DNA from: Nautilus pompilius | Taxonomy: Eukaryota; Mollusca; Cephalopoda; Nautilida; Nautilidae | NCBI GenBank assembly: GCA_018389105.1 | Contig: JACATO010000067.1 | Span: forward strand, 558,001-622,000 | Direction of reading: 5' to 3' | DNA length: 64,000 nucleotides | In this document: positions 22,705-55,129 of the stretch, one piece after another | How positions within the stretch are numbered: the first letter of the stretch is position 1 | How the letters are laid out: the number at the start of each line of letters is the position of its first letter | Translations under genes and position numbers: made by a program | Notes under the pieces: generated by a model | The model's input: only the letters and a program-made list of their open reading frames with translations | What the model was told of the DNA's origin: nothing | The model's database searches: none

Positions 22705-22750
22705 CTGGATATTTTGAACAATGTTTGTTATCAACAAAATAAACTGCCAA
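22705..22750 (-). CDS. Candidate exon 3 (46-nt microexon) of the ROS1-like gene
   Basis: On the - strand, cagttttgtattttcag precedes 46 nt and then CCAG|GTATGC. In the phase left by exon 2 it reads LAVYFVDNKHCSKYP plus one base, so it ends in phase 1. The segment VDNKHC aligns naturally with the VDQKNC stretch that follows the second CxxxC pair in human ROS1, which supports both the exon and the family call. The donor is weaker than that of exon 2. The intron separating it from exon 2 is about 6.9 kb. Confidence 0.48.
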
Positions 22751-23144
22751 CTGAAAATACAAAACTGAACTCGGCAGTAGTGACAAGTATACAATGTCTG
22801 TGTAAACATGAGATGAAAAATACAAATTCAAAGCACAAAACAGCACAGAAAAGTTTAATAAAGCTGATTTCTTTTGTTCATTTACAAACAGTTTTAATTT
22901 ATACATAAATAAAGATTCCATAATGTAGTGTTTGTAGAAGACAAGCCAGTATCTTCATGTTTTCCAAACAAAAACTTGTGCCCAGAATTCAAAGCAATGT
23001 GGCTAAGAAACATCAATATCCCACTGTGGCACTCTGAAATATGGGTGCTACTCATAATTTCTGAGCACCTCTACGCAGGTAAAAAAAAGAAAGATCAACT
23101 GTTCCCTTATCCAACAAATGTGAAATATAGCATTCCCTTATGTA

Positions 23145-24444
23145 CGAGGTCTGTTGAAAAAGTATCCAACTTTATTTTTTCCCATGGGAAGTAATGACGT
23201 TAGGGAGGCAAAAGTGTGCATAGTGGAGTCACATGCGTGGTTTTTGGCGGGCTTGCTGGATGCGTCAGTCGCTGTCAGGCAGCAAGCATGTGAGGTGCTG
23301 TACCACTTACTCGTCGCATTTTTATTTCGCCTGTGATGACGGAACATGTGGAGCAACAATCTTGCATAATCAAATTTTGCCAAAAGCTTGGAGATATCCA
23401 AGCGGAAACAATTTGCAAAATTCAACAGGCTTTTGGCGACAATGCCATGGGTGTTACCCAAATAAAAGAATGGTACAACAGGTTCAAAGATGGCTGCACA
23501 TCAGTGGAGAGTGACCAGCGTTCCGGGAGGCCGTCAACAAGCCGCAATGCAGTTTTTATCGAGAAAGTGCGGACCTTGATAATGGAGGATTGTCATTTGA
23601 CAGTGAGGGAAATTGGTGATGAGGTTGAGATCAGTAAAGATTCTTCACATGCAATTTTAAAGGAGGATTTGGGCTTGTGCAGAGTGGCAGCGAAATTTGT
23701 GCCCAAGCTGCTTTGTCAGGAACAACAACAACTTCGTCTTGAGGTTGCTCAGGACCTGCTGGATACTGCCAACAGGGATCCTGAGTTCCAGAATACTGTG
23801 ATAACTGAAGATGAGATGTGGGTGTACGGGTATGACCCGCTAACCAAAGCTCAGTCATCACAGTGGAAGCATCCAACGTCGCCAAGGCCGAAGCAAAATC
23901 AAGGTGATGCTGACTGTTTTCTTCAACTACCGAGCCTTTTGTGCATCACGAATATGCACCAGTAGGACAAACAGTTACAAAGGAGTACTATCAGGAAGTC
24001 CTCCGACATCTTTGTGATGCAGTTTGGTGCAAGAGACCGGATCTGTGAGCCTCGCAAAACTGGCAGCTGCATCATGACAACGCCCCAGCTCATACGTTGC
24101 AGCTGATCCAAGGTTTCTTGGCAAAGAAAGGCATTTTGCTCATTTGCCAGGCTCCCTACTCTCCAGACATGGCTCCTTCTGACTTCTAGTTGTTCCCAAA
24201 AATGAAGATGCCACTGAAAGGCTCCCGCTTTGAGAGCCAAGAGGACATCGTGCAGAATGCAACGGCGGAGGTGAGAGCCATTCCAGAAGCATTCCAGACG
24301 TGCTTTGAACAGTGGAAGGATCACTGGGCTAAGTGTGTGGAGGTACAAAGGGCCTATTTGGAATGGGGATTAGCAATTGAACCCCACAATGTATGTAATT
24401 TTTTTTCCCGAGCCTAAGGTTGGATACTTTTTCAACAGACCTCG
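23145..24444 (+). mobile_element. Complete mariner element with perfect TIRs, inactive
   Basis: The element is 1,300 bp and is bounded by identical 26-bp inverted ends beginning CGAGGTCTGTTGAAAAAGTA and by TA duplications (23143-23144 and 24445-24446). Length, TA target and TIRs fit the mariner family of the Tc1/mariner superfamily. A single transposase gene fills the interior on the + strand and is broken. The identical ends next to a mutated gene suggest that it was moved in trans, or that it is fairly young. Confidence 0.93.
23336..24416 (+). pseudogene. Mariner transposase pseudogene (DD34D)
   Basis: The N-terminal helix-turn-helix region is intact: IKFCQKLGD near the start, then QIKEWYNRFKDG and GRPSTSRN. 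The first catalytic Asp is in TEDEMWVYGYD. The frame is lost around 23,885-23,910 and again around 23,930-23,950. The second Asp remains in WQLHHDNAPAH (about 24,060-24,095) and the third in YSPDMAPSDF, but a TAG replaces the Trp expected just after it (24187-24189). A TGA also interrupts the linker near 24,046. The C-terminal KCVEVQRAY is recognisable. All three catalytic residues survive, while at least two frameshifts and two stops prevent a full protein. Confidence 0.92.
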
Positions 24445-24849
24445 TATATTAAAATTTTTTTTTTTATTTAAGCAGACAAACAGGACTGACACTTAATTAA
24501 TTAAGTACAATCTGTCAGACAGGAACCAAATCCTTAAATAAAATAAGGAACCGTTTTTATATTTAAAGAGATTTTTAAATTCAAAATGGATATACATTTA
24601 AACAATTTTATAGTTTGTTTCTTTGTTTGAATATTGATACCCCAATTATGGGATAACAAGAAAAATTATATTTTCTAAAAAATATAATCAATGTAGGTTT
24701 ATCTGACCTTAGTCAACATTTTGGGAATATAGCTATGAATAACAGAAATTTGAAAACTGTTCTGAATAAGTAGATCAAATGAATTTAAAATCTTCATTTT
24801 TTAAGTAGAATTCCATATTTTAAAGACTGAATATTATTATTAAAACATT

Positions 24850-25960
24850 AATTTTATAAAGCCTAAGAAAGGAAACTTTTCTACTTAAAACCAGTCAGTA
24901 TTATTAGCAATATTATCATATGACATTTGAGTATCAAGAAAAGTTAGCTATTCAATTTTTTCATACTCTATAGTAGATTCCAATTATGATGTTGAGAATT
25001 AAGCCATAAAGTGATCTGCAGTTTCACTTGAGATAAAAAGCATAAAATGTGTCATCCATATATCTATAATGAAAAAATGGATATTTCAGTATATGTATTA
25101 AACATCTTCAATAAAAGTTTAATAAAAGACAAAAAATATTACCTACAACAGGACCTAGTGAGAAATCCATAGCAACATCATCTGTCTGAGAATACAATTT
25201 ATCATTAAAATAAAAATGTACATTATACGTTCTGGTGTTGTAGGTGGTATCATATAATTTATTAATTACAGATATCCTTGATATATTACACATTTGTAAA
25301 TAAAAAAGTAACATCACAAGAGCAAAATATTTTGTTATGAAAGTTGCAATTACTGTTCAATAAATAGAGAAAATGAAATTAATCTTTAGGCATATATATG
25401 CTGACAGCAATGGGTCATAGAATATCAACCAAAAATTTAACTAAGTTGTAATTACAAGTAGCTTTATAGAAGATAAAAAAGAAGAATTAAGTTCATAGAT
25501 TTAGAAGTCCATGCAGAATACTTTGTTGTGAAGAAACTAGTCACAAGCTATTATAAGTAAAGAAAAAACATTATCATTTATTAAGATAAGCAAATACCTT
25601 TGTAATAATATTTCTAGGTTTGATACAAACATGAAGTGGTTCAACATTACATTTGAATTTTTCAGAAACAGGGAGTATTTGTGAAACTTTGTTGATAAAA
25701 TCATTTTTTTATTTAGGATAACCATACTGCCATTCTTAACAGAAAAAATTATAACAAGTGGTTTATTTTTAATGAAGTAAAGAATTTGTGTCCTATACTG
25801 ATGAATACATTGTACAGAATATTTCACTTCAGTGCCATACTGTTGAAAAGAATCATGATTAATAGATAGTGACTTAATTTGTTTGCATAGTTCAAATCTG
25901 GAACTGAAGGCTGATGGTTTACCCATATACATGTCATTAACAAGAATAATTATCATTCTT
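24850..25960 (-). pseudogene. Penelope-like retroelement relic (RT), opposite strand
   Basis: Reading leftward: KNGSMVILNKKMILSTKFHK (about 25,730; cf. DKGNGVVILD), then FNDKLYSQTDDVAMDFSLG (about 25,175-25,235; cf. FNGKxYxQxDGVAMGSPLGP), then YMDDTFYAF (about 25,040-25,070), then LTFLDTQMS (about 24,935). These are the reverse transcriptase blocks of Penelope-like elements in the correct order. The first long open frame (25537-25956) belongs to this relic. Stops and frameshifts break it; no endonuclease domain is recognised on this strand. Confidence 0.72.
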
Positions 25961-26034
25961 TATAATTAAATAAATCTTTATTGAAAGTCTTTCCTTATAT
26001 CCTTTTGTAGAATTAAAGTTTCATTTTCAACTTC

Positions 26035-26185
26035 TTTCTGTTCATGCACTATTTGACAGATACTACCATTGTTTATGTACAATGTCAAACATGTAAAAAC
26101 CCCTATGTGGGCAAGATCATCCAGTTAGTCAAAGAGAGGTTTATGTGGCACTGTCTGGCAGAGAGAATCTGGTCTTGTTAAATAG
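26035..26185 (+). pseudogene. Penelope-like GIY-YIG endonuclease fragment
   Basis: VVYVQCQTCKNPYVGKIIQ followed by LVKERFMWHC fits the start of a GIY-YIG domain in Penelope-like elements (vvYxixCxxCxxxYVGqTxxxlxxRxxxH). It lies on the + strand, about 80 bp beyond the 5' side of the - strand relic at 24.85-25.96 kb, so the two are in opposite orientation. Confidence 0.55.
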
Positions 26186-26199
26186 CGCTGCTGCCAGTT

Positions 26200-29100
26200 T
26201 GGTTTATTTTAGTCAATACTAGACTAAGTTTAATCTGAAATATTATAGTTTTTTGATTCAATATTTATATATTTTACACTTAGATTTTTTTTGTTGGCTT
26301 GTTGTTGTTAAAATTAAGAGTAAATGTAAAAATATCATGAGAAAACAGTGTTGATATTTTAAAAAAAAAACATTAAATATTCAATGTAATAATCTCAATA
26401 ATAATAATAATGATGATGATGATTGATGATGATGATGTTTATTTTGACATAATTTTGTAGTCTAAAAATAAAATTATTCTATTATCTTAACTGAACTTAT
26501 AAGCAATGCTTTTAAAACTGGATTACTGAGTAGTTCCAGTTGTTAGGTGATCAGGGTGATTATTTTTCTTAATTTAACCTGATAGTTCACCAGGGGCCTT
26601 TCTCATGTTCCCTGAGGTTTTCTAGTCATTTATAGTCACCAGGAACTTTTTCCAATTTGACAAGTTTGAACTAAAATGTTTGCAATCCTGGAAAATATAC
26701 TCCTTTAAAACTGGTGATTAAATTCTCACATTTAGAAATAAACATCTTTTAGTTCAATTAAATTTACAGAAAAATTACTGTTTTTATAAAATAAAAAGAA
26801 AAAAAAAACAATTTTGTTGGTTATCAAATGGACTAAACTTGAAAATTTAGATGAAAAAAAAACAGAAATAAGTTAGTTTATGGAATTTTATGCATTGGCT
26901 TTTAAATAAATAATTCCATTAGTTTATTTAACATTTTTAGAAAATGAAAAATTACTTTATAAGTGCCTCATCTTAAACATGCCAAAATGCTTCTTTGAGT
27001 AAATTATACTAATAACCTCATTCAAAAACAAGCTTCTTTAAAGCTGGTTTCCTTGTAAACTTGAGATACTTCCAAACCCATGGATGCAATAGCTATATTT
27101 AGACAGAACAATTATAAATCACAAAACTACAGTGTTAGAAATATAATCCTTGCTTCAAGGTTTCAATATTCTACACTCACGTCCTTTATTTAAAGTCTTA
27201 ATAAAACAATTTTGCAAGCAAGTATTGGAGACACATATGTTCGCTTTGACATTAAAGTTTATTTGTTCTTTTTAAAAGATGGCATTTAAAAAAAAAAACT
27301 ATTCTTGAAAATCATGAAAAATTTCCTAATGGACCCTTTGAAAAGCCACCCCAAATTAAAAAAAAAAAAAGAAAATTCCTAAGATTAATAACAACAATGA
27401 AGCAAGTTAAATGACAATTTACCTTAGTTTTGATGTAATTAATAACCTCCTGTATGAACAAAATTTCCTTTTGCCCAGATTTTAATAGAGATATTTCAGA
27501 AAAAAAAATCTTTAGAAATTCTAAACTTGGGCTCTTAATAAAAATGCTCCTTCATTAAATATTTTCCAGTATTATCAAATATTTTGAATACTACTACCTT
27601 TCAAATGATCTGTCCATGGAGATTAGCCAGACAATTTAGGACTAAAATTGCTTGACCTTACTGACCTACCAAAGCAATGTCTTTGCCCTAAGGGTGGTCT
27701 GCTGATAGGCAATGACCCTCAGAAGCTGATACTGTCCTGGCTAGAGTTTGGGCTAGCTGAACAGATGTTCTGTGATTCCCCCCATCACCTATGATGCAGA
27801 AGTCAAATTCCCTGTCCAGATTTTATCAACCAAACAATTTGCTAAAATTCTTTTGAACACTATTATAATAACAACCTGGCATAAGCACAAGCAAACCCAT
27901 CTTTTTTTATCCTTCACACCATTGTATTAAATTAATTTGTTATAGTCTTACCTAGCCTGCTGATTATACAAGAATTGGAACAAAGAATAATTTTTAAAAA
28001 ATATTAAAAGTTCTGTCTTAGAAGTGTATCTATCTGAGTGGATTCATTGTTCATAAGTGAAAATTCACTAAACAGATATTTTCATATAAAAAAACAACAC
28101 TTTATCAACTTGATTTATTCCTGCTCATTTCAAACAGTTATGGAAAAGCCATGTTAAAAACATCAAAGTACATGCATAAAAAGAGTCAACTTTTTATTAA
28201 TTTTAAATAAAATTGTATTTATTTCAAATTTAAGAAAAGTTTGCCAATTACACCCTCTCCCGTTCAGCATCACATCAACTTTCTGGTTAAAGTTTAAAAA
28301 CAAAAAGGCTGATAATGCACAAATTTAGTTTTACCACAATAACAAATAAATAAATTTTCTAATTTTTAAAAAAGTTTTTTTTAAAGCAACAATCTGATAA
28401 ATATGACTCATCTTCAGCTATTAAAATTGGGAGGGGAGATGAGATTTTATAAAAGATGTGATTTTTTTTCAATGTCATCTACAATAACAAAATGGAAACA
28501 ATGTCTATACACTAAGGACGTACACCAGAACAACAATTACAATTTTAAAAAGCAAAATCTTACAGACTAAGGTTTCTTTTAAATAAAAACCACATGAACA
28601 GCAGCAACGACAATGAAAATAGCTAAAATACAAATGTTTGAGTAGATCAGCCTTTAAAAAAAAGATTATGAAAAACAACAACAACAAAAAGAAAATATTT
28701 GAATTATTGTGGGTTTTTACTTTCTAAGTGCAGTCCTGTGAAATAAATTGTTGTTACTGTTTAAAATTTGCAAATCTGTTAATTTTTTTCCTGTGTTTTC
28801 ATTAACCTATCATTTTTGTATTTATTAATTAATTTTTTTTACATTTTTAAAATAAAATTACAAATTTCTCTGAAACAAACTGTTTAAGCAAAAATTTCAC
28901 TAATTGTTTCTATAAGCTGGCAAAGAATTATAAATCTTGAAATTATTGAACTAAAGTTTTCCTTTCTCCCTTAACAATGTAAAAAGTGGGATGCTTTTTA
29001 TATTTTAAGCCTTTTTTCTTATAAACAATGCTCTTGAATAAGAAAATTACAAAAAAACACACAAAAGCTAATAAAATAGTCTTGATAAATAAATTTCAAG

Positions 29101-29677
29101 AAACTGAAGAGATTTACTCTGCATGTGTAAAATAATATGAATAAAACAAAGGCAACCAAAGATTTCAAACTGGAGAGCAATAACCAGAATTTTCAAGAAA
29201 GATAAAGGAAAACAGCATGTGCCCATAAATTTTATAACAACTTAAATATAAGAAAGTTCTGATACAAAACACTTCTTTTTTATTTCTATTATTTTTTTAA
29301 TCTGTAATTCTTGTTTCTTGACTAGTGCATATTCATCCAGACACACTAATGCAGTCTATAACTTTCCAAAACAATAAAAATGTTTGGTTTCAAATCAATT
29401 ATACAGTAAAGAATAAGAAGCAAGATAAATTTTTTTTTAAAAAATCAAAAAATTATCAGCTGATTAAATAAATGATTTCCTGAAAAACAGAAATATTAAC
29501 CACAACTTGTATAACTTAAGGATTTGTTTTTTTTTTTAATGTGAAAATATTATAATATATCTAACATTTTTTCAAAATTAATAAATATATTTAATACTGA
29601 CATTTAGAGTTTTCTGTTACTCTCATATAATGTCATATACAACTTATTTAGTAAAAAACAAAAAATATATTTCTTAC
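26200..29677. other. AT-rich non-coding DNA, proposed intron 2
   Basis: A (GAT)n run lies at about 26,412-26,440. GC-richer patches at about 26,560-26,660 and 27,640-27,830 may be old repeats but match nothing recognised elsewhere in the window. Confidence 0.5.
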
Positions 29678-29728
29678 CTGTTTCCTTTTACAGTTTCTAT
29701 CACAAAATGGATTATTGTTTTCATTATT
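29678..29728 (-). CDS. Exon 2 (51-nt microexon) of the ROS1-like gene
   Basis: On the - strand a classic acceptor (gtttgtttttttcag) precedes 51 nt and then CAG|GTAAGAA, an excellent donor. The exon is open in phase 0 and reads NNENNNPFCDRNCKRKQ. It enters in the phase left by exon 1, is a multiple of three, and adds a second CxxxC pair of the same spacing. In human ROS1 the matching stretch also has a CxxxC after a P. The intron to exon 1 is about 24.3 kb. No ORF finder would report so short an exon. Confidence 0.68.
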
Positions 29729-31535
29729 CTGAAAAAACAAACAAACAAACTGTTCAGTAATAAGGAGAATCTATTTTGTAATAAATAAATAAATAATAAT
29801 AGTATCAATTATTTTTATTAACAAATAACATGTATATTAGTTTGTGTGTTAGAATACTTTAGATTTCTTCTGCATATTAATTTTTACGTATCAAAATAGT
29901 TCCTATTACTAAGCACTTAGCAAGTTTTACTATTGTTGTTAATGTCAGTATTGTATACTGTAGGCAAATTGTCACTAGTGTTGTGTCACAACTCAGCAGC
30001 TAAGTGTCTTTTTTCAGGGAGAAAATACAGCTGATGTAAGATGGATGGATGGAAATAAAGCTTCTCAAGAATGTGTTATGGGGAATAGCTCTGTTTTGGC
30101 ATCTTTTGTAATTAGAAAAAGTTCTGATAATACCTTTTGATGTATATGCCAGTTGTGTGACTTGAGCATAGTAAATATTTTTATTATTTATTCAATCTCC
30201 AAATGGCATTAAAACATCCACTTTTACAAACATCTTACATTTCAAAGTAGCCACTCCCTCCCCTATTTTCTACATTTGAAATTGCAGTAAAAAGCATCTA
30301 TAAAAGTAAACAAATTGATATATGTCCAAGACTAAAACAATCTTACTTGAGAAACATTGTTTCATTTGCCATGTAATTCAACTGGTCAGCCAGCCAATTT
30401 AAAATCCCTTTGAAAACTCTTCATATCATATAATTTAGTAACTTTGAAAATTTGATGATATTATTAAAGATTCAAATGTTAATATAAAAAGCAACAATAA
30501 CAAAAATATGGCTGGGTAAGAGTAAGTGCATAATGGTTCAACAGTGTACATATCATACACATATCACATTGTGAGCAAGATATTTGAATATTGATGATAT
30601 ATTATTATTATTATTATCATTATTATTATGCGAGATCTGCCTGTGGAAATGTAATATGCACACATTAACTAAAGACTGGTTGTATGGAGAATCTAGCAAT
30701 CTGTTCAGGAAAATATGGATCAGTCACTTAGCCAATCAGAAAGTATATACATTCACTCTGGTTGATAAACCTAGCCATATAATGAAACTACATATACATC
30801 CACAGATGCGTAAAATCACTTGCTTTTCATTAGTTCTTACTAGTTTAGTGCTTTACATTCCCTTATTTATGGCAATTCAGAACATAAACAGTGAGGCTGA
30901 TCAATCAGAAGCCAGCTGTACAAGATTTTGAACCCAAGATTTTAGACTTGAAAGCTACATATCAACACCCATATTGAAATTTAAAAGCAGACAAGATTCT
31001 CTTCAAAGATCCTGCAGAAGCATAAAATGTCAAGTGAAAGTAAACAAATAGAAGCCCCCACCAGCTTACTGGAAATACTTTGGATTTAAAGTAATCCATA
31101 ATAAAAAAAAAAGGGCAAAGTATCAAGAGAGATATGGTGCATATCAGAAAATGTTTCACAGAACACAGAGCAGGTAATGAATATCAGTGTTCTTCTATGA
31201 CACCACCATGGAATTTCAGAATCAAATTAATTAAATTTAAAATTAAATTACTTATTTCATAAGAAACTGATTAACTCTACCCACACAAAAGAAATAAGTT
31301 AAAAAATCAGCTTATTGCCCACAACTTCAAACCATAAAGTCTAGTTGAAATCCCAGCTTTCATAAAGTTGGTTGATGTTTTAGAGCCAACATACAAATTC
31401 TTTTAAGGCAATACTTCTGTGAAACAGTGATTCTTGCCTTGTATAATGAAGTTAAGGATGAGTTGCTCTAGTGCTATGAAAGGTTGTTTCTGTATCTTTG
31501 ACAAAATGGTTAGACCTTCAGGCAATTGAATCATG
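29729..31535. other. AT-rich non-coding DNA, proposed intron 1
   Basis: A 115-codon frame at 30584-30931 (+) has no recognised motif, is flanked by an (ATT)n run and lacks splice signals at useful positions. No gene is called. Confidence 0.5.
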
Positions 31536-31539
31536 TGTA

Positions 31540-32880
31540 ACTACAACTACCCCAATACATTTCCCAAGAGTGAACATTTAATAGTGTCAAAAACTGTACT
31601 TCTTGTCAGACTTGCACACTGAAGAAAGTCTAGGATGCTATTATTAAGACATCCATTAAATAAAACACTGCATCCACATGGCATAAATTGTGTTGTGATT
31701 GGAAACGGTAGCAATGCAACATCAGGTGTCAAAGTGAGCGGACTGCAACTACATATTGAATGTTTTGCACACAATAAATTTTGATACAAACATGGATAGG
31801 AGATAAGCAACTTTGATCATGTGATAATAGCATCATACTTCCACCAAAATGCAAAAGCTTCTGCCATCCTCAAAGAAAAGTTTGCTTTGCTGAAAAATGA
31901 TGGCCCAAAAAATGTTAATCATGAATGTGGCTATGTTTGACATGACAGAGGTATGTTCTGCTGAAGTCTGCTATTTTGACTACCCTGTTGTCATAGGAAA
32001 TTTTATAGGATTAAAAGATGTGGTCCCTTTGTCAGAAAATTCAAGAACATCGAAAAGGCTATTGACACTTTCAAGCTAATGAAAACAATCACCACCTTAA
32101 TGTGTGATGCCAATAGTCCTACCATCTTGTCTCATTGATACTGCCCCCAGATGACTGCGCATTTGTCCAAAAGGTCAAACAAGCTAAAGTGTCTGGAAGT
32201 TCCTGCCCAAAGCTACAGCATTTGAATCTATCCTTCATCAATGATAATGAAAGACATCATGTGTTTACCATCCTAGTGGGGAAAATTGAGATCACTAAAG
32301 CTATTAACAAAAACTAAGTGCAGAATTTTTGCCAAAAGTTACAAAAAATTACCACTTTTATTTTTTAAAACATTCAAAAAAAATTATTGTTGTAATTATT
32401 GTGTACTTATTGATGAAAGTTAATCCAGTTGAGAACACCCATCTTGTGCTTCATCCTGATCCTACTCAGTTACCTAGCTCATCTGTAAACAAAACCCTGG
32501 GCAAGAGTTATGTAGGCTCCACTGCTCTCCAGCCAAGAATATAGCCATATTAGAGATCTCTTTGGCTATGTCTTCATTAAAAGCATTGTTCCAAGATGTT
32601 CATTTCAGCAGCAAATCAAAGATGAAGTACAAAAATATAAAGCAGAACTCTGTATCTCACTTGACAATAATCCCTTGGACTAATTGAAATACTACAAGCA
32701 AATGTACCCATCCATACCTGGATAAATTAGCCAGTGTCTTGACCATTCTTGCTACCTAATTACCCAGTGAAAAGATATTTTCAACAGCTAGACATTGTGC
32801 CTGCACAAAGGTCATATCTTCAACTAGATAATGTTGACATTTTAAATTTTCTAATAAAAGAATTTGAAGCTCACTAAGAT
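31540..32880 (+). pseudogene. hAT transposase fossil (ZBED-like)
   Basis: Fragments on the + strand follow the order of zinc-finger BED/hAT transposases. GNGSNATSGVKVSG with HIECFAH nearby (about 31,700-31,775) matches the DNxSNM...HxxCxAH block. CDANSPTILSH lies near 32,106-32,138. NNPLD then KYYKQMYPSI (about 32,668-32,715) and LPSEKIFSTARH (about 32,758-32,793) match the hAT dimerisation domain. LDNVDILNFLIKEFEAH ends at a TAA near 32,877. Many stops and at least four frame changes are present. A BED finger and terminal repeats were not found. Confidence 0.75.
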
Positions 32881-32884
32881 ATAT

Positions 32885-35435: not shown

Positions 35436-35439
35436 CCTT

Positions 35440-36660: not shown

Positions 36661-36664
36661 ATAT

Positions 36665-41250: not shown

Positions 41251-41254
41251 CCTA

Positions 41255-43489: not shown

Positions 43490-43499
43490 TACATTACCT

Positions 43500-45275
43500 T
43501 TGAAAAGAAAAGAAAAATTTTATGAGTATTCTCTAATTTAAAAAATTCAAACCCAAATAAACCATGGCGTCAGAACTGAACTAGAAAACTAAAAGCAACC
43601 AAAGTTTTAAGTAAATAGTATGGAAAGAGTTAAACAACACCTCAATGTTGTTGCTTATTGTTTGTTGCGCCCCCTATTTCAAACACCAACCTGAATGAGG
43701 AAGGGGTGGGAGTAATAACACTGGACACCCTAGCCAGCAGAATTGATTTTTCTGTTGGATAGGATTTAATTGCTACTCAACTACAATGTTGCAAATCAAA
43801 ATTTAAAAAAAAAACTTTAGCCTCTAATGAACGGCCATACAAGGAATCTTTATTTTTCAGGGGAAACAGAGTGCCCAGAGGAATGACACACAGCTGGCTG
43901 GTAAAGAAACCATGCTAGCAAGGTACACCAAATCAAACAGTCCAAAGGATTTGACCTCAAGTCCTCAACCTTAGAACTCCATTAGTCTACCACTGGACAA
44001 CATGCCACACTATACCACACTCTAAAATATATTAACTAATAATAATTTGTAAGTGAATTCAAGCTTCATTAATTTTGTTGCTGTTCTTTATCTTTTCCTT
44101 CAATGACTAATAGCATTAGTAATAAGGTAATAGGAGCTTTGGCCTCTCCCAGACTTTCTCCATATTATTATGGTCATCAGGATGAAGAAAATAAAGAAAT
44201 AAAACTTAGAAGCAACAGCCACTGATAAACTAAAATTTAAACATAGCTCCAGAAAATAAAGAATTTAGTTCTTGTTGAGCATGTTTGCTTTAGAAATAAA
44301 AAGGACTTTACACAAAATGTTTTCATTACAACTATAGTAACTGAAACCAACAGGATTTTTAAAGTAAATATCCCTAGTTAAAAACTAAATTAAAAATTAT
44401 TAAAATTTACACTGCATTCATCATGTTTAAAGTATTTCTTAACAATACCACTAGATACAGAAATGTTAGCCATGTTTTGTTATGATAATTTATTTTTTTT
44501 TTACTGTAGTGTAAGAAAATGTTGAATTCACCATTTATTTTTATCCCCACAAAAAACGGTACTGACACTGATTTTCATCATTATCATCATTATTATTTTA
44601 ATATATTAAATCTTTTGTTTTAGTATATAATATAAAACTGTAAACAGACAATGAAGTTAAAAATACAGATAAAGCCATGAACGCTAATAATACCGAAGGA
44701 AAAAAAGTAAATCTAGGAAAGAATAGAAACAATTTTAAAATTTAAAAACTTGGAATAAAAATTTTAAGTAAACTGTAGCATGACCTAGATTCTTAACAAC
44801 ACTCATAGCCTATGAATACCATATTTTCATAATTAACTGGTGTCCAAAAATTGATAAAGAAAAATGAACAAATGATAGTCCATAGCAATAAGTATAGTAA
44901 TTACTGCAGACCAAAGAATATCTCAATAACTGTGCAGTATATGTTATAGCCTCTTATTAATTGCTTTTGTCATTTTTTATGATTGTTCTTGGTAGTCTGT
45001 GCAGTTTTCCTGAACTCGCATCTATATCACTATTATTTTTGCTTCGTTGAATTAAAAAATGTATATATTATATGCACACACATTTACATGACAATATACA
45101 CAGGATGGTGGAAATGAAATCTATGCATAATTTGACAGATGTGTTTAATCTTTTATGTTCATAAAAAAAGGAAATTTATCAGTAAGAAAACTCTATTTGC
45201 TTTTTATGTTTGTTTTTAGTTAACCTCAAATTCTTAAAGATCCATGTTCAAGCACTGATGATGGCACTGAATAAA
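43500..45275. other. AT-rich non-coding DNA around SINE copy 2
   Basis: Outside the SINE there is a GC-richer patch at about 43,665-43,770 of unknown origin. No genes. Confidence 0.5.
43845..44015 (-). repeat. tRNA-like SINE, copy 2
   Basis: On the - strand, GTCCAGTGGTAGACTAATGG resembles a polymerase III A box and GAGGTCAAATCCTT resembles a B box, about 40 bp apart. These are followed by TTGGTGTACCTTGC and GCATGGTTTCTTTACCAG, also found in the copy at 60 kb. It ends in AATAAAGATT and A/T-rich sequence. This copy has the clearest tRNA head of the three. Confidence 0.68.
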
Positions 45276-45279
45276 TACT

Positions 45280-45466
45280 TGATAAATACAAACATGATAT
45301 GATAGGAAACTATTAGTTTGTATAAAACATGAGTCCAGAAAATCACAATTGCGAAATCACTTAGATATCAGCTAAACTGCTACTAGAGTATCCATCAATG
45401 AGTGACCTTTATAAATATCAGGAAATTTGTACTGACTCCACTCAGCAGCTTGTTTTTATATACTGA

Positions 45467-45517
<51 letters not shown>

Positions 45518-45535
45518 AGTTTCATTTACCTGTTG
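45280..45535 (+). repeat. Left copy of a direct repeat flanking the 45.5-47.9 kb block
   Basis: This stretch matches 47,885-48,085 in the same orientation. Shared words include GATATGATA/CAGGAAACTATTA, GAAATCACAATTG, CACTTAGA and TGACTCCACTCAGCA. Divergence is roughly 15-20 percent by eye. The copy contains a long (TA)n tract that the other lacks. Confidence 0.8.
45471..45514. repeat. (TA)22 microsatellite
   Basis: A pure alternating TA tract of 44 bp lies inside the left direct-repeat copy. Confidence 0.97.
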
Positions 45536-45562
45536 AGTATGCAAAAATCTGGAGGATTAATC

Positions 45563-46040
45563 TCACATGAAAGTTATATAAGTGCATATTGCTTTATTAT
45601 GCAGTGACACTACATGTCCAATTCTCTTTGTTTTATAGTCAAACATTTCTTCCATTGCAGATACAACTTCTGCATGATCTTGATGCCAATAATCAACTTT
45701 GTATATCGATGTAAATGGCAACCATAAAGTTACTTCCTGCAGTCTCTGCATCTTGGCTGGAAACAGCTTTAATGTCTTATAAATCACCTTCCATGCAGTT
45801 TGCTGGGATAGGTTCATGGACCTGTCAGCTTGATAGGTGCTTCATTCTCCAAGTGACTGCCTTGTCCAGTTTCTGGTGATACTTGATAAATTTTTGTAAC
45901 AACTTCCATGGGTGTATGTGGGCATCTTGATCATGATGCATCAGACATAGATCCTGTCTCCTCCAATTTATGGATGAGATTATGTAAGGTCGTTGTACTA
46001 CATGGCTTTGATAAACATTTCTATCATGATGGAGACACAA
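45563..46040 (-). pseudogene. Transposase fragment, helix-turn-helix region (IS630/Tc1-mariner-like)
   Basis: Two overlapping open pieces on the - strand, separated by a frameshift near 45,820, contain LSQQTAWKVIYKTLKLFPAK followed by MQRLQEVTLW. That pattern (a 'tvwrilhkdLkl.PYKiq.lQeL' helix-turn-helix end) is typical of IS630/Tc1-mariner transposases of invertebrates. No catalytic motif follows. It lies between the direct repeats and immediately left of the deleted mariner. The upstream piece (DAHIHPWKLLQKF) is not recognised. Confidence 0.42.
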
Positions 46041-46153
46041 AAAGCCACTGTTACAATATATTCACTGCTTTAAAACATCACCAGTGTTATGCAATCTTGG
46101 AGAGAAAAGGGTTAAATAAGTGATTTGCTTGCTCTTGAAATAAAATATATATA

Positions 46154-47104
46154 TGAGGTGTAGTTAAAAAGTATCCGACCTTGAATTTGTTTGAACAAAA
46201 TAATAATGTGTGAGCAAAATCCGCATAGGTATTAGGTGACCGCGTCTTTCCTGAGCATGCGCAAAAATTTTCGTGTCTGTAGGTTGTGCCAGTCGTCCAC
46301 AGTGACGCGTTGAGTACAGACGTGAAGAGTGTGCTGTGTGATTTTTGTTTTTGAGTCAAGATGACCGAGCGCATTGAGCAAAGATACTGTATCAAATTCT
46401 GCCAAAAACTTGGTGATACGCAAGCCCAGACTATCGAGAGGATTCAGAAGGCCTTTGGAGATGATGCTATGGAAAAAACACAAATAAAGGAGTGGTACAA
46501 CCGGTTCAAAGATGGCCGCCCCTCAGTGGACAGTGAGCCATGTTGTGGCAGACCATCAACTAGCAGAAATGATGAAATGATTGCAAAGGTTCAAGGAATA
46601 TTCTATGAAGACCGTCATGTGACTATTAAGGAGATTGTTGCTGATGTTGGAATCAGCCATGGGTCAGTTCAGTCAATTATAACAGAAGATTTGTGCATGA
46701 GGAGGATGTCGGCCAAATTCGTACCAAAGTTGCAACACACCCGCTCATTCTGCCCACGTCGTCCAAGCATTCCTTGCCAAGCATAAGACACCACTTGTTC
46801 ATCAGGCTTCCTACTCCCCAGACTTGGCTCCATGTGACTTTTGGCTATTCCCAAAGCTTAAAAAAACACTCAAAGGGAGAAGATTTGAGTCAACAGAGGA
46901 CATTAAGCAAAATTTGACGGCACAGCTCTATAGCATCCCAAAAAGTGATTTCCAGAAATGTTTCCAGCAGTGGCAGGAACGCTGGCATAAGTGTGTAGAC
47001 TCCCAAGGCGAATACTTTGAAGGAGACTAAAAAAAATGGTGAGTTTTCTAATATTACTTGTTTTTTTTTTGGCCAAAGGTCGGATACTTTTTGACTACAC
47101 CTCG
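46154..47104 (+). mobile_element. Internally deleted mariner element (951 bp)
   Basis: Inverted ends [T/C]GAGGTGTAGT[T/C]AAAAAGTATC lie inside TA duplications at 46152-46153 and 47105-47106. The terminal sequence is related to but distinct from the mariner at 23.1 kb, so this is a sister subfamily. At 951 bp it is about 350 bp shorter than a full mariner, the loss being inside the transposase gene. It sits in a TATATA-rich target within a block flanked by direct repeats. Confidence 0.92.
46361..47030 (+). pseudogene. Mariner transposase with central catalytic deletion
   Basis: The frame opens with MTERIEQRYCIKFCQKLGD and keeps the DNA-binding part (QIKEWYNRFKDG, GRPSTSRN) through KFVPKL. It then jumps straight to a segment matching ...PAHSAHVVQAFLAKHK, in another frame. 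The deletion removes the first catalytic Asp and the Asp of the HHDNAPAH motif. The C-terminal third (YSPDLAPCDFWLFPKLK to the stop after GEYFEGD at about 47,030) is clean. The result is a DNA-binding head joined out of frame to a catalytic tail, without activity. Confidence 0.9.
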
Positions 47105-47884
47105 TATATATATATTTTTTTAAAGGCATAGTTATACAAAATTGACCATATACAGTTTTATATGGTTATGACTGAAATGTTGATTTGCAATGAAATTAAA
47201 TAAAAATGGTAATGGGAACTAGACAGTTTTATCATTTAGTTTCAATGTTTCAGCTATTTTATCTGTTTTGAAAAATTGGAGACCATACATAGATTTTATT
47301 ATACAGGTGGCTTATAATGTAACTACATCTGTTGTGGCTAAAGATGAGGGTTCATTAATTAAAAGATTTATATAAAAGCCATCCTCACAGGAGTCGTAGT
47401 AATCGGATAATTTTCATGTAAACATTCCTTCAACTGTACATCAAGGTAACTAATTTTCTTAAATCATACCTGAATAAAGATTGCATTTATCTTCATATGA
47501 AGCCATTTTTGCTACACATTTAAAAAACAATCATTTTTGTTTAACATTTTTTTTCTGAGTGAAAAATATGATCTATAATACAATTATGTAAAATATTTAA
47601 TTGCCAATATGTTCAAAAACCAGACAGGTTTCTTCATTCTCTCTCCTTTCTTGCTTTACTAAATATTTATAATAAAATAAAATAATGAAATATGATAGTT
47701 TATGTATAAAAAGTTGTACCCTTTTCACTGACTGCTGGAAACAGAAAAACTACTGACCTGATTATAGGAAGTAAAAGGGTTAATTTAACATCTTTGAGCT
47801 ACCTATATTGTATGACATACTTTTAACCAGCTTAGCATCTACTTGTAACCTTGCAAATCCCTCCATTAGATAAAGGCTAATAGT

Positions 47885-48085
47885 TTATCAATGCAGATAT
47901 GATATGACAGGAAACTATTACTCTGTATAAAATATAAGACCAGGAAATCACAATTGTCAAATCACTTAGACATCAGCTGATCTGCTACAAGGGAATCCAT
48001 CACTGAGTGACCTTTACAAATATCAGGTTTTACTGACTCCACTCAGCAACTCATTTTTATGTACTGATGCATATACCAGTTTCAT
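47885..48085 (+). repeat. Right copy of the direct repeat
   Basis: This is the partner of 45,280-45,535 and reads the same way. Where the left copy has (TA)22, this one has only GCATATACC before the shared GTTTCATTT. Confidence 0.8.
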
Positions 48086-48377
48086 TTCGTTTACATATGC
48101 CATCACAGTCTTTAGTACACACAGTTATTTGTTTAAACAAGATTTTTTTGCTTTAGCATGCTACAATCAAAACAAAGACTGCAAAAGCCTGAAAACCTAC
48201 TACTATATTGCAAAAAGAAAGTTTTCACAAGAAAAACAACACACAGCTTTAACTGGGGCATTTACCTTTCAAATCAGAATAATGTGATCTTAGAAATGAA
48301 ATGAAAACTGATTCAGTTTGTTCAGAATATTTTGCTCTTCATCTATATATCACTATAAAAATGCTAAAAGCCTTCAT

Positions 48378-48379
<2 letters not shown>

Positions 48380-48412
<33 letters not shown>

Positions 48413-48425
48413 ACACACACTCTCT
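48380..48425. repeat. (TC)n(AC)n microsatellite
   Basis: About 28 bp of TC repeats are followed by short AC repeats. Confidence 0.92.
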
Positions 48426-50394
48426 TCTAAATCTTCCCTTAAAAACAAAACAAAAAACAAAACTAGTTAAGTTTAACCTTTTTCTCTCTCTAGTTTTAAA
48501 CTAGGCTTAAATTCATTTGGAGCATAAATAACAACCATAATGATCACGAATAGACAATACTGCTAACATTACACATGAAGAAAGAATTTAAATGATGATA
48601 AATTAATTACCAAACCATTACATATATTAAACCCTAATAAACATTCTAGCAACCTGGAAATAAAATATTACAAGTTCTATTTTGTTTGCCAAGCAACCAG
48701 TCCATGGATCAAAGACTTTCATGCTTCTTTATGCAAATAGATTTTAAAACTTTTATAATTTGTATAGGCTAAACTGTGAAAGGTGTATTAGTTAAAATTA
48801 TGACTGATCATTAGGGTTCTTCCAATTACTTGGTATAATTAATGACTGGTTAGAAACCTGCTCAAGCATTTGATAGTGATTTTTTATAAATGACAACCAA
48901 AAGTCACTCATAAAGTTATTTCATAATACCGATGATAAACAATGAATGTTTAGCAATAACTGATCCTCTGACATCAATCACAATGAAAAAAAAACAAACT
49001 TTATACTACTTTATGATTCCTACTGTGTTAGAAATCATAAAGTTGGCATTAATATATATATATATATATTTTTTTACTACATCAAACATACAAGGGGATA
49101 TACAAAGCTAACACAAAAAGCATTATTTAGTTTTAGATTAAATTTATTTAGTTTTTAGAAAAAATAATGATACAAATTTTTAAATCCATTTGTTGCCATA
49201 AACACTTTACAGTTAAAGTTCTCGATTAAATCTTTTTGGGAACCAAGCTATGTTAAAAATATTGATGATATTATTAGCTACATTGCCATAGGGTTGCTGA
49301 TTAGCAATTTGCCTTACATATAAAATTAAGAAAAGGTGATAATTTATTCAATAATTAGTCTCTCACCATTTATATTTATTTGTCTTTCTAAGTATCTAAA
49401 TTTATGAACTAGCATCGTATTCTTGCAGCTATTGTGCTTGTGCTTAATACTTATTTTTATCTCAGATTTAGTGACCTGCTCATAATAATTTTTGGTTTAA
49501 ATCCAAACAATTTTGTCAGATCACTAATTAGATTTTAATTTTTCATAATTTAACATTCAGATGTTGTTGTTATTGATTTCTTATTTGTTTGTTTGCCTAT
49601 GGGCATCCCTGCCAAAGCTAAGAACATCGCTTGTTCAACATGGTGACAACATCTCCATTTCTTTGGTGTTTGTGATCCTTGGCCATATCTATTGTCTTAG
49701 GTACATGACAGTACAGTCACTCTTCTGTTTGAGATATTCTTGGTAGGAACTTGGAAAGTGGACATCACTCAAGTGTTCAAATGGTGCACATTAAACGTTT
49801 CCCAGAGTTCAGTTTGGTAGATTATCACCATGACCACCATTGTCTGAGTCCAACCAGACATTGGAAATGGTGCCTAGTGAACAAGGCTACTTAAATTCCA
49901 CCTAAAACCGCTGCATGGTCTCAAAGATATAAAAGATCATAGATCTCGTTTTCTTATATAAGAGATCTAAGGTGAAAATAGATATTTTTTTCTTATATAT
50001 CCTTGCATAAATCTTTTATATTGTATAAAAAACTCAAACCTGATAAAGTTTAACAAAAAATTTCACAAATGAAATGGTCTTCTACATTTTTTTTATATGC
50101 AATAAACAACAATAAATCATTTCTTAGGTATCTTTCAATTCAAAGAAGAGCAGGTACCAAGATTTATTTCCCAGTCAACAACGATTTCATCCAAGCAGAT
50201 ATGGCAGACAGAGATAAACATATTTTGGTAAAGATTGTTTTTACAATTCAACCATATTATGTTTTTATTTTAAATTTTGAAGAGAAAATATTAATAATTA
50301 ATAAGGTTTAAAAAAAGAATATAAGCAAAAAACAGAACTACTACTACCACCACAAATGTCTTCATCTATACTTTGTGGAAATATATCACTGCTG

Positions 50395-50490
50395 GTGGCT
50401 AAGTTGATTACAGCTGAGGCAGCCGGTCGTGGAACCGACCCCAGCTCCCACCATACACTTGCAACTTCACACACATACCACAACAATTGC
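50395..50490 (-). repeat. Possible tRNA-derived SINE fragment
   Basis: On the - strand a short GC-rich block holds GGGGTCGGTTCCACGACC, a B-box-like hairpin, about 50 bp after ATGGTGCAATTG. Unlike the three SINE copies, it shares no central domain with them. It might be a different SINE family or chance. Confidence 0.25.
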
Positions 50491-52727
50491 ACCATACCCC
50501 CCCCAAAAAGTTGATACCATTTGTTAGTTTAAAAGACTGAATATAGGCTTCCATCCAAAATTACATTGTGCCTGATTAGTTTATTTGTCCTTAAAAATTC
50601 CTTAACAAACCAGAATATGGTTGTATTTTCAAATTTAATTGCTCACAAAAAATTTTGCCTACTTTAATGAATTCATACTAAAATGCCATTAAGGCGACTG
50701 GAAACATGTAAAGCGTCTTGGAAAAAGAACTGTAGTTTGAATACTCAGGATGTAACATGCCCTCATACATAGCCAAGTTTTCAAGTGCAAGATTAATTTA
50801 ATTTTGGGAAAATTCAGATGAATATTCACAGTTGTGGAAAAGTCCCTTCCACATTAAACTAAAGATTTTTATGTTTGTTGGACCTTAGAGACTTATCAAG
50901 ACTACAAAAATGTATACACAATAATCCTGGATTTTTTAATGGAACCCTCCAATTAAACTGCAGAAAGTAAAAAAAAGCTAATAAAAACTGATTTTCAAAG
51001 GTTCAGAAACATAACGAGACTTTCAGAAAACACTGAACAAAGGCAGGTATGCTATGCTTGTTTTTGATCCAAAGTAAACTGCATATTCAATTTAATTTGC
51101 CTTATCTAGTCTTACATTTGATTTCATCTTTATCAACATGATGCATTTTGTTGAATATCTTATTAATATCCATTCTTTCTTTTTTTATGACATTATACCA
51201 AAACTAAGCTTTTGGTTGAAAGCAGGTAATAATGAATTATGAAATTTAAGTGACTATAATTAAATGATCAATCAGTTAATTTCCCAGATATCAATTCATT
51301 TACATAATTTTCTTCTACAATAATAATATACCCCTGTTTGTTTGGCTAAGAATTTTAAGAGTTATGTTTTACATTCCTGTCAGAAAATTATGTTTTTTTT
51401 TTTTAAAAAAATAGTTTAAAAATCTCTGATTTAAAAATTTTAGAATTCTTGTAAACATAGAGAACACATTTTTCACAAGTTAATTACAGAAACTTGCTCT
51501 TTAAGAGAGAGAAAGAGAGGTCCTGCCTATTTGTAAATATACAATATTAAAAAACTATGGCTTTAGAAGAAAAGCATGCTATTAAAAGAAAACAGTAAAT
51601 TATATTCATAATGGTGTAAGGAACAGAAGACAAAAATTAATTTTAAAAAAATTAGTAATACAGCAAATATAAATGTCTGAAGAACAGACAACATTTTATT
51701 AGTTCAACCACTTTAAATGTGATCTCTCAATAACCATCAATCTAAATGATCTTCACATTTTTGATTTAATTTCTAATCTGATGTTGCAAAAAGAAGGTGC
51801 AGTTATATTTTTTAAAAATTTTTAGATGAAAGTATATTGATAACCAATTGTAGTATTAGTAGTATTAGAAAACTACAATGACTGACTATTATTATTTATT
51901 GCTTTTATTTACACACATCAAGTAAGATATCAGAATTTACACATTTCTATCATACACCATAACAAATACTTATTATTATTATTATTAATAATCACACTAA
52001 CAATACAAAAATAAATATGAGATAAACTAAAGCATGGACTAGTCCATCTCAGATGCGTTTGTGTGTGTGTGTGCGCACGCATGGGCAAAGGCTGACAAAT
52101 TACAGAGATGGCCAAAATTACTTGAACAACCTAAAACAATTCTAATTTTTTAAAAGAGAAGTTATACTGATTAACGGTGCAATGATTACAAATTTTAAAC
52201 ATTTTGGTGTGTTTCTGACCTGTTATCTTTCTTTTGAAAAAAAAAATAATCTCCTTTAGACAAACCACCACTGGAAAGTGTGCATTTATTGAAGTTTACT
52301 GCTTTATTACTCAACAACTGCATCTCTACAAGGAATTAATACCGTAAGAAGGATGTTTAGTAAAGCGACCTTAAGTACAAGGCTTAACTGGTTCTATGTT
52401 AAAAATACATTTTTACAGTGCCACGTTGGACACAATATTTTGTTTAAAAATATAGAACAATGCAATAATCTTGATCACCACTGTAGTTTCTAACTAAATA
52501 ACCTCCGATCGAACAATTTCGCACTACAAGTACAAGCCAACCTTTCACATTGGGTTCTTTTATTAAATGCTATGCCAATAGATAAATACATATATCTATC
52601 TTGTTTGTTTTTTTTTTAAATTCCAACACTGTAATGATGAAATTAAATTTTTATCTATTTAATTTCAGGTAGATTTGGGCCATAAGAACATTAGCACAAA
52701 CAGCTGTAAACGATCAATGGGGACGTA

Positions 52728-52772
52728 TTATTATTATTATTATATTATTATTATTATTATTATCATCATCAT
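52728..52772. repeat. (TTA)n/(ATC)n microsatellite
   Basis: An interrupted TTA run is followed by (ATC)4. Shorter TTA runs are at 17,010-17,025, 30,600-30,630 and 51,970-51,988. Confidence 0.9.
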
Positions 52773-52999
52773 CTCTGTACTAAGTCTTCGCTATGAAAAC
52801 AGTTTAGCACTAAGCAGTTCACGGTTTGATATGAATAATTAGCATCTTTCGCTGCATGAAGCAAAAGTTACGAACGATAAGCGACAGATTTTCGTCCGCT
52901 ATAGCGATTCGAATTCTCAAATTACCAATTACACACTTAGGAATCAAATGCTGCTGACTGACGTGCGATAATGTCTTGTTACCGAACGTGCGTAGGGGT

Positions 53000-54005
53000 T
53001 GGGACGGGGGAGGAGGGGGGGACGGGGAGGGAGGAGGGGATACCACATCTCGTTCACCAGCAAAATATGAAAATAACAGGAATCGTTTTATTTTTTTTTT
53101 TTAAAAATTGGCAGACAATCTCATACATACATATATATATATTAGATAGGTGGTGGAAGGAGACTTGGATTTTCCACATTTCCTTAGCTTCTTACCTATT
53201 AAACAATGCAGTAAATTAAATTTTAAATTAAAATCGTCGAAACCGCCACCAACTAACAATAAGAAAGTAATGTTGGATTTAAAAACAACAACAACAACAA
53301 CAAAAACCCTCTGAGCCTGAGGGACGTTTCTGAGATCCCCGGACCCGTCTAAAACTAATTGTAACTGTCGCAGTAGTAAGAAGGAAGAAATAACTGAATA
53401 GATTTAAATTGATCCAGGTGATAAAGAAGAGGAGTAAGGATGTTTTTTTTAATGAGAGTAATGTCTGAGAGAGAAAAGGGGGTGGGTGGGGGGATGTTTG
53501 TTACCGGGTTGTTGAAAAGTATTCGTAAGAGAAGGGGAGAACAGAAACCAAAGGGTTAAGGGAATTAGTTAAACTGCAGGTGAATAAATCTTTGGAAATG
53601 TTCGATATGAAGGGGAAGGCGGGCGTTCGACCGACGGGTAATCGATTACGTCCCCGACCCATGCACGGACTGGGCGAGAGACGGGGATTGGGAGGGGGGG
53701 GGTTGTTTGTCTTTCTATGTATACAAAGTCAGATCGTTCCGATGGCAGGTAGGAAACAACACAAAAAACAAAGTCAGTAAACGGAAATAACAGAGTGTGT
53801 GTGGGGGGGGTGGGGTGTGTGGAGGAAAAGTTTCTTCGTCGTCGTATTTCGCTACAGGTCGATAAAACCAACCGACCGCGTGTTTCGCCCCACATCGCTG
53901 ATGAAGCGAGCGAGAGAGAGAGAGAGATGCCGCAGCAGCGAGTGATTCAGAACGGGGGGATCTCGGAGAGGTTGGGGGGGGGGGGGGAGGGAGAGAGGGG
54001 GGAGG
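53000..54005 (+). repeat. Cluster of G-tracts on the + strand (first intron of the - strand gene)
   Basis: Runs of four to fourteen G recur at about 53003-53040, 53480-53495, 53690-53703, 53803-53816 and 53970-54003, almost all on the + strand. The last begins about 20 bp inside intron 1 from the donor of the - strand gene. The spacing meets the usual G-quadruplex pattern (four G3+ tracts with short loops). A (GA)n run lies at about 53913-53928. No coding content is supported. Confidence 0.7.
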
Positions 54006-54022
54006 AGGTCTCTCTGACTTAC

Positions 54023-54172
54023 CGAAATCCTTTCGCAGCTGGGCCTGCATCTGCTTTCCAGGAAATCGCCGGCGACGGGGACAACAGAAGCCAGCAGCAG
54101 CAGCAGCAGCAGCTGCACGTAAAAGTTTAGCCGCCAGAACAGCGAGATGCTTGTCATCGTTCGTAAAAACAT
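54023..54172 (-). CDS. Exon 1 of a secreted/membrane protein, ROS1-like N-terminus (partial gene)
   Basis: On the - strand, 50 codons run from the ATG at 54172 to a GTAAGT donor at 54022, ending in phase 0. The protein opens with a basic/aromatic segment, then QLLLLLLLASVVPVAGDF, a strong signal peptide probably cleaved near residue 35, then SRCRPSCERIS with a CxxxC pair. The gene is divergent to GOPC from a shared CpG-rich promoter. With the microexons at 29.7 and 22.7 kb, the mature N-terminus carries two CxxxC pairs and then VDNKHC. This parallels the Cys-rich start of the ROS1 receptor tyrosine kinase, a vertebrate neighbour of GOPC. Family assignment is inference; the signal peptide and donor are seen directly. 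An in-frame acidic extension upstream is treated as 5' UTR. Confidence 0.7.
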
Positions 54173-54180
54173 CGCGCCGC

Positions 54181-54250
54181 CGCCGCCACCATCATCATCA
54201 TCATCATCATCATCATCACCATCCTCCTCCTCCTCCTCCTCCTCATCATC
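54181..54250. repeat. Trinucleotide runs (CCG, ATC, CTC) in the 5' leader of the - strand gene
   Basis: Consecutive (GCC/CCG), (ATC)n and (CTC)n runs lie just upstream of the - strand ATG. On that strand they form an open frame continuous with the signal-peptide ORF and would encode Gly, Asp and Glu runs. A signal peptide start at 54172 makes a leader role more likely than coding. Confidence 0.7.
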
Positions 54251-54294
54251 GCCGACGCCGCTCCGGTCCGCGCTGGGAACTCTGAGGAAATCTC

Positions 54295-54302
54295 TGACGT
54301 CA
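54295..54302. promoter_or_regulatory. CRE palindrome TGACGTCA
   Basis: An exact 8-bp match to the CREB/ATF palindrome lies in the divergent promoter, about 125 bp upstream of the - strand ATG and about 425 bp upstream of the GOPC ATG. Occupancy is unknown. Confidence 0.55.
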
Positions 54303-54336
54303 CCGGCGCTGATGAGACAAAATCGGGTCGTATCCT

Positions 54337-54344
54337 TATAAATA
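54337..54344. promoter_or_regulatory. TATA-like element TATAAATA
   Basis: TATAAATA on the + strand lies inside an AT island (TTATAAATATGCATAA) in otherwise GC-rich promoter DNA. On the - strand it reads TATTTATA, a weaker TATA match, so it could serve either direction. It overlaps the farthest upstream in-frame ATG of the - strand gene (54349), which would make that ATG unlikely to be transcribed if this TATA is used leftward. Confidence 0.4.
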
Positions 54345-54727
54345 TGCATAAAGGGTATCGCTTCCGACCCCGGTTCCCACGTAGCTGCAGCTCTCTCGTT
54401 CGGAATCTATGCGGTTTCCGTCCTCCTCATCGATACGGATTGATTCGTCTCTTGTCGTCTGCTATGAAATCGCTCAGCGAACATTGTTTTTTTTCTCTGT
54501 GTACCAGGGATTTGGCCGTCCGTAGTTTCGCCTTCGATTTTTTTGGTTGGGGGGGGGACAGAGAAATTACGTACCGTTTCCCTTTCGTCGGCAAAAAGGG
54601 TTTAGAAAATATCAAAATGAATTTTAGAAAAATAAACGAGCGACGAAGGAGGGGTGGAATTAGTTTCTGGCGTAGTATTATTATTATTACTAGCTTCGTA
54701 TGCATTTTTTTTGAGACGTAAACAAAA

Positions 54728-54940
54728 ATGGCGGCTTCGGTATCCTTTAGGTGGCTAGAAATACTCGAAAACGACTTCGACAAGGCTTTCGTCGATTTAG
54801 ATCTCTTGCTGGGAGAAATAGACCCCGAGCAGTATGAGCTAACGTGCGATGGAAGACAAAAAATGACCGCACTCAGTGCTGCCTTTGCGCAACTATGGCA
54901 TAAAGCTCAAACCATCTTTCAGTTTAACGCCAAATTGGAA
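54728..54940 (+). CDS. GOPC: GOPC exon 1, N-terminal coding part (partial gene)
   Basis: This exon encodes 71 residues ending in codon GAA directly before a GTAAGT donor (phase 0). The block [19 protein letters not shown] (residues 17-35), followed by GRQKMTALS and FAQLWHKAQ, matches the conserved N-terminus of the Golgi-associated PDZ and coiled-coil protein (also called PIST, CAL or FIG) almost residue for residue from memory. In animals that protein sits on the trans-Golgi, binds cargo C-termini through its PDZ domain and binds Rho/SNARE partners through its coiled coil. Only the part before the coiled coil is seen; the coiled-coil and PDZ exons are not recognisable before position 64,000. 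The ATG lies in AAAAATGGCGGC, a strong start context that also resembles a YY1 site. An in-frame TAA six bases upstream fixes the start. The gene is transcribed away from the - strand gene across about 555 bp. Confidence 0.93.
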
Positions 54941-54943
54941 GTA

Positions 54944-55125: not shown

Positions 55126-55129
55126 GTAA

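Follow-up and report, generated by a model that had tools for sequence, protein, structure and literature searches.

The receptor tyrosine kinase gene ROS1 and GOPC, the gene of a Golgi trafficking protein, are known together through a cancer fusion that arises by a short deletion. In one study, a single 242.5-kb deletion, with VGLL2 and NUS1 at its flanks, takes in human ROS1, DCBLD1, and GOPC, and the 5' part of GOPC becomes fused to the 3' part of ROS1 through a deletion of 240 kb (PMC3232202); another describes formation of the GOPC-ROS1 fusion by small deletions (PMC6422201). As a deletion fuses 5' GOPC to 3' ROS1, the human genes stand in tandem, with DCBLD1 between them, which agrees with the statement in an original prediction, made from the present DNA alone, that they are not head-to-head. 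Here, the two genes are described as adjoining in a mollusc, in a 64,000-nucleotide stretch of the Nautilus pompilius genome (GenBank assembly GCA_018389105.1, contig JACATO010000067.1, called C67 below). This whole stretch, "the window," is C67:558001-622000, window position 1 being C67:558001. As at human 6q22.1, where they lie within ~240 kb in the order ROS1-DCBLD1-GOPC (PMC3232202, in part), the genes are close neighbors. Unlike the human genes, those of Nautilus are divergent with 555 bp between their start codons, an arrangement from which no simple deletion could make a GOPC-ROS1 fusion.

Relatives of the ROS1 product have been studied in vertebrates and insects. Chicken (9oyz) and mouse (9pvp) ROS1 have a CATCH domain, fibronectin type III (FN3) domains, propellers, and a kinase in the same order as the Nautilus protein, and the Drosophila ortholog is Sevenless. 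According to two papers, the CATCH domain holds the extracellular part folded in Sevenless and chicken ROS1 (PMC11743138; PMC13044245); the domain is defined there by two hairpins, each stapled by CxxxC pairs (PMC11743138, in part). No account of a head-to-head arrangement was found in the literature on ROS1/GOPC synteny or microsynteny, and papers on GOPC with ROS1 and DCBLD1 included none on invertebrates by title or abstract. On ROS1 and receptor tyrosine kinases in cephalopods, the search yielded an octopus transcriptome study. GOPC was absent among the matches listed for bidirectional promoters, and neither "ROS1" nor "sevenless" occurs in the main text of the N. pompilius genome paper (PMC8257504).

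Identification of ROS1 and GOPC

The window very probably holds the common upstream region and the first exons of both genes, ROS1 being read leftwards from the - strand and GOPC rightwards from the + strand, back to back around a short CpG-rich stretch. The head-to-head order and close spacing that had been predicted were recovered, with both start codons in one CpG island, 555 bp apart. The leftward gene would encode a receptor tyrosine kinase with a signal peptide, a CATCH domain, FN3 domains, propellers, and a kinase; its recognizable exons reach ~176 kb from exon 1, and a likely tail exon lies 195 kb from it. The rightward gene would encode the Golgi PDZ/coiled-coil protein GOPC and extend ~137 kb to the last exon seen, ~14 kb short of the contig end.

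The divergent neighbor of GOPC had been predicted to be ROS1-like, with the suggestion to search the - strand beyond the left edge of the window for FN3 repeats and a tyrosine kinase. Such exons, together with propeller exons, were indeed found there in order, which supports its identification as ROS1. When whole human ROS1 was used in a tblastn search of C67:358001-622000, 18 pieces were obtained at E up to 1, all on the - strand and none (0/18) inside the window. Between 512.6 kb and 436.6 kb, 17 of the 18 followed the ROS1 order, the exception being weak (E 0.67), and of the pieces with E < 0.01 all were in order (12/12), so that FN3 domains and propellers, located in part, precede the kinase as in ROS1. 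The entire genome (727.6 Mb, 2558 contigs) was searched with 645 aa of the extracellular half of human ROS1; matches were taken at E up to 0.1, and all 19 first-look candidates were scored. Two matches resulted, both on C67, on the - strand, and in ROS1 order, 47-72 kb left of the window. ROS1 apparently occurs as a single copy; a location elsewhere in the genome, named in the original prediction as a finding that would speak against it, was not seen in this search, as both matches (2/2) fell on this contig.

Six kinase exons join openly to a domain reading GSGAFGEVFEG ... HRDLAARNCLVS, which was assigned to PK_Tyr_Ser-Thr by Pfam (1.5e-96). Its best matches in the PDB were chicken ROS1 (1.2e-125) and human ROS1 (7.3e-122), followed by a row labelled EGFR (9p9u, 1.7e-107), which ranks between ROS1 and ALK (6.4e-99), and by IGF1R (1.1e-91). 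By E values, the kinase thus resembles ROS1 more than it does ALK, IGF1R, or INSR. Beyond it, C67:416831-417664 (-) contains a 278-residue open frame with the tyrosine motifs YMEPSK, YLEL, and YVTP, which is probably the exon of the ROS1 cytoplasmic tail.

GOPC exon 1 (54728..54940, + strand; 71 codons, frame 0 at the donor) had been called clear, and rightly so: in a tblastn search with human GOPC, it showed 71% identity over 65 residues (E 7.9e-25). A genome-wide PDZ search yielded 58 matches, one of them at C67:747265 (+). This GOPC PDZ exon (C67:747265-747429, +), which lies 125 kb beyond the right end of the window, shares 80% identity with human GOPC; tblastn found a further exon after it (C67:749399-749509, +). 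The gene thus has both the conserved N-terminal exon and the PDZ domain of GOPC. A tblastn search for the coiled coils over the window and C67:743001-763000 returned one weak piece only (E 0.45); the exons encoding them presumably lie in C67:622001-743000. Searches of viral and genome contig collections with exon 1 gave nothing useful.

The N-terminus of Nautilus ROS1

The predicted signal-peptide start and two CxxxC pairs are carried by two exons of the window, both in frame 0. Exon 1 (54023..54172, - strand; 50 codons) starts with an ATG and encodes a hydrophobic N-terminus, read as a signal peptide, and then CRPSC, the first CxxxC (C1-C2) of the CATCH domain; it ends at a GTAAGT donor in frame 0. 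Exon 2 (29678..29728, -; 51 bases, 17 codons, NNENNNPFCDRNCKRKQ) supplies capping loop 1 and the second CxxxC pair and is in frame 0 at both ends. Intron 1, as delimited by these exons, would occupy 29729..54022 (-) and contains a mariner copy at ~46.2-47.1 kb, while the window part of intron 2 (1..29677, -) runs on leftwards to exon 3 at C67:525252. Exon 3 (C67:525252-525169, -; CLTGCKLYHSARTVSCSQLCSNEQTGFE, frame 0 to 0) and exon 4 (C67:519095-519035, -; QQYCVIGCTKGLKLYVQTVE, frame 0 to 1) are located left of the window, ahead of the first FN3 exon. Joined at hand-chosen boundaries, as were the six kinase exons, exons 1-7 give 317 codons without a stop.

Against solved structures, the joined N-terminus matched chicken ROS1 (1.1e-38) and mouse ROS1 (1.8e-37) best, in an alignment that covers exons 3 and 4, and Pfam recognized fn3 in this part (6.4e-18); chicken ROS1 is thus among the two best matches of the N-terminus as well as of the kinase. 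The cysteines are laid out as CRPSC-21-CLTGC-10-CSQLC-11-CVIGC, the corresponding spacings in mouse ROS1 being 19/10/12. The predicted disulfides would staple each of two hairpins by CxxxC pairs, as in a CATCH domain. Against a hand-aligned profile of 4 ROS1/Sevenless sequences, the joined domain scored 28.3 bits, in a match reaching from loop 1 through the last CxxxC; the first CxxxC was recognized by eye. This score was reached by 0/5000 shuffles and by 19/2000 shuffles with fixed cysteines. From its family membership, the Nautilus product would be a receptor kinase in which the CATCH domain keeps the extracellular part folded.

Capping loop 1 of the Nautilus protein has two extra cysteines, one of them four residues ahead of C3, unlike that of vertebrate ROS1, with none in mouse and one in chicken. 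Sevenless likewise has two extra cysteines in this loop, and both proteins contain a C-x4-C-x3-C run, CYKTRCTKGC in Sevenless and CKRKQCLTGC in Nautilus. The Drosophila protein differs in its weaker match to the joined N-terminus (E 4e-14) and in the length of the loop, 28 residues vs 21 in Nautilus. A ROS1 N-terminal domain with Sevenless-like extra cysteines is thereby described from a mollusc.

When splice sites were scored with hand-made matrices, no other open exon in window 1-54000, on either strand, was as strong at both ends as exon 2. A frame-0 exon of the same summed strength arose in 13/300 third-order and 15/300 fifth-order Markov runs, and one that also holds a CxxxC in 0/300 and 0/300. 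With exon 2, C2 and C3 are 21 residues apart, vs 4 without it; mouse ROS1 has 19 residues there and chicken ROS1 22.

Several points weigh against these assignments. The reading frame also stays open when exon 2 is skipped, and its inclusion raises the CATCH profile score by just 2 bits (28.3 vs 26.3); of the two exons in the window, exon 2 is the less secure. Exon 1 has only its frame, its signal peptide, and the CxxxC layout to connect it with ROS1, since the structure alignments start at residue 57-64 and the profile match omits C1xxxC2. On the CATCH profile, the scores of the window peptides were matched by 804 and 920 of 1000 cysteine-fixed shuffles and by 128 and 147 of 2000 free ones. 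One splice site scores weakly in exon 3 (acceptor 1.4) and one in exon 4 (donor -0.1), and because cysteines were among the reasons for choosing these exons, the shuffle test of the joined domain looks stronger than it is. At C67:525602-525488 (-), an exon-like stretch has a summed splice score of 16.1, above that of exon 2, but its only open frame cannot be accommodated between exons 2 and 3. All gene models, moreover, derive from genomic sequence. In the window alone, tblastn with ROS1/Sevenless N-termini gave nothing useful, the CATCH profile found no match beyond the cysteines, and Pfam, NCBIfam, and PDB searches with the window peptides did not identify ROS1.

A third exon encoding VDNKHC had been proposed at 22705..22750 (-) and had to be abandoned. 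The letters and a fair donor are present at 22750-22705, but the 46 bases break the ROS1 frame, and their insertion gives many stops. Of 100 random sequences, 22 held an exon of equal or greater strength that was in frame 0 and bore a cysteine. A VDxKxC motif is not conserved either, since the same place reads VDQETC in mouse and TEQVNC in chicken ROS1. Other CxxxC stretches were set aside as well, that at 48.09-48.12 kb for want of a good acceptor in an open frame and those at 17.57 kb, 27.2 kb, and 27.97 kb because their splice sites were unconvincing by eye.

The region between the genes

The 555 bp between the start codons (54173..54727) form a candidate bidirectional promoter with a CpG observed/expected ratio of 1.43, vs 0.18 in 1-52000. 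They lie in a CpG-rich block over both first exons (52801..55600, edges approximate). The bin 52001-56000 contains 162 CpG (observed/expected 1.07), and the ratio is 0.07-0.35 in the other 15 4-kb bins. With 555 bp between the start codons and a CpG island around both in an otherwise CpG-poor window, it is plausible that the island serves as a promoter common to ROS1 and GOPC; it would most likely start GOPC rightwards and ROS1 leftwards. As in known bidirectional CpG-island promoters, the genes are divergent, their start codons are less than 1 kb apart, and one island covers both first exons. Unlike in these, there is a TATA-like box near the ROS1 side. The box, TATTTATAAGG (54334..54344, -), lies upstream of ROS1, and a perfect palindrome of the cyclic AMP response element, TGACGTCA, is present at 54295..54302 (4 occur in C67:358001-622000); both are consensus matches only. 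At this locus, one can ask whether a receptor kinase and a Golgi trafficking protein are expressed from one promoter.

Twelve upstream ATGs, largely from a CAT repeat, share one frame at window 54154-54249 (-), after the TATA-like box and ahead of the ROS1 ATG, with which they are out of frame. As in stop-restart arrangements, the stop codon of their frame shares bases with the codon of the second in-frame Met (54157), and because of this overlap the array may reduce translation of ROS1 or let it resume at Met6.

In the 15 4-kb bins other than 52001-56000, the low CpG ratio is accompanied by raised TpG/CpA. Such a ratio is about as low as in vertebrates, and the combination suggests heavy germline methylation in Nautilus.

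Age of the linkage and alternative explanations

Because ROS1 and GOPC are neighbors in a mollusc as well as in humans, their linkage probably predates the protostome-deuterostome split, which would give it an age of more than 500 million years. The human tandem order and the head-to-head order of Nautilus would be separated by one or more inversions, we infer, and a single inversion of a GOPC-DCBLD1 block would interconvert them if DCBLD1 once lay beyond GOPC. The change in orientation allows one to ask when the arrangement permitting the fusion arose. It is possible, and held with somewhat less than even confidence, that the head-to-head pair around one CpG-island promoter is ancestral in bilaterians, that an inversion of GOPC and DCBLD1 in the vertebrate line made the tandem, and that only then could a simple deletion create the oncogene.

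ROS1 and GOPC might instead have been joined independently in cephalopods and vertebrates, in which case the linkage would not be ancient. Orientation and spacing differ between the lineages, the human genes being in tandem with DCBLD1 between, and beyond the far end of Nautilus ROS1 lies not VGLL2 but a tryptophanyl-tRNA synthetase-like exon (C67:408243-408695, +), tail to tail with ROS1. It matched TIGR00233 at 3e-20 (72.8 bits), as a fragment below the model cut-off, and with this exon in that place the VGLL2 side appears not to be conserved in Nautilus. Chance adjacency of the same two genes in both lineages is, however, estimated at about one in several thousand, with ~20,000 genes assumed, and independent joining is considered very unlikely. 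That an assembly error brought the two regions together is hardly credible: exons 2 (29.7 kb) and 1 (54.1 kb) of ROS1 straddle the region adjoining GOPC, both start codons are in one CpG island 555 bp apart, and an error would not recreate a neighborhood that also exists in humans.

The remaining alternative concerns exon 1. ROS1 would lie to the left but have its true first exon elsewhere in C67:525-612 kb, and the exon at 54172 would belong to a short divergent transcript of the GOPC promoter whose frame fits by accident. The region is GC- and repeat-rich, so that open frames arise readily, a CTG repeat supplies part of the hydrophobic core, the upstream ATG array is out of frame, and the exon has no direct sequence match to ROS1; in addition, the exon scan of C67:505-612 kb was aimed at internal exons, not at start exons. 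The exon does, however, give ROS1 an otherwise missing start, signal peptide, and C1xxxC2, the latter placed four residues ahead of an intron in frame 0, as exons 2 and 3 require, and an accidental origin is judged very unlikely.

Other features of the ROS1 gene

With the exon at 54172 taken as ROS1 exon 1, the gene contains some further features. GC-AG boundaries seem to take the place of GT-AG at two introns of the kinase part (AAG/GCAAGT and ATATG/GCAAGT, at C67 ~443296 and 439258). Between the kinase exons and the likely tail exon, C67:421949-423547 (-) holds a 533-residue open frame, which we take to resemble hAT/FAM200-type transposon-derived proteins. Remnants of mariner-type transposases (HTH_48) are present in ROS1 introns at window 23201-24400 and 46201-47100, and relatives 86-95% identical occur at C67 520.9 kb, 541.5 kb, and 495-496 kb, also within the ROS1 gene.

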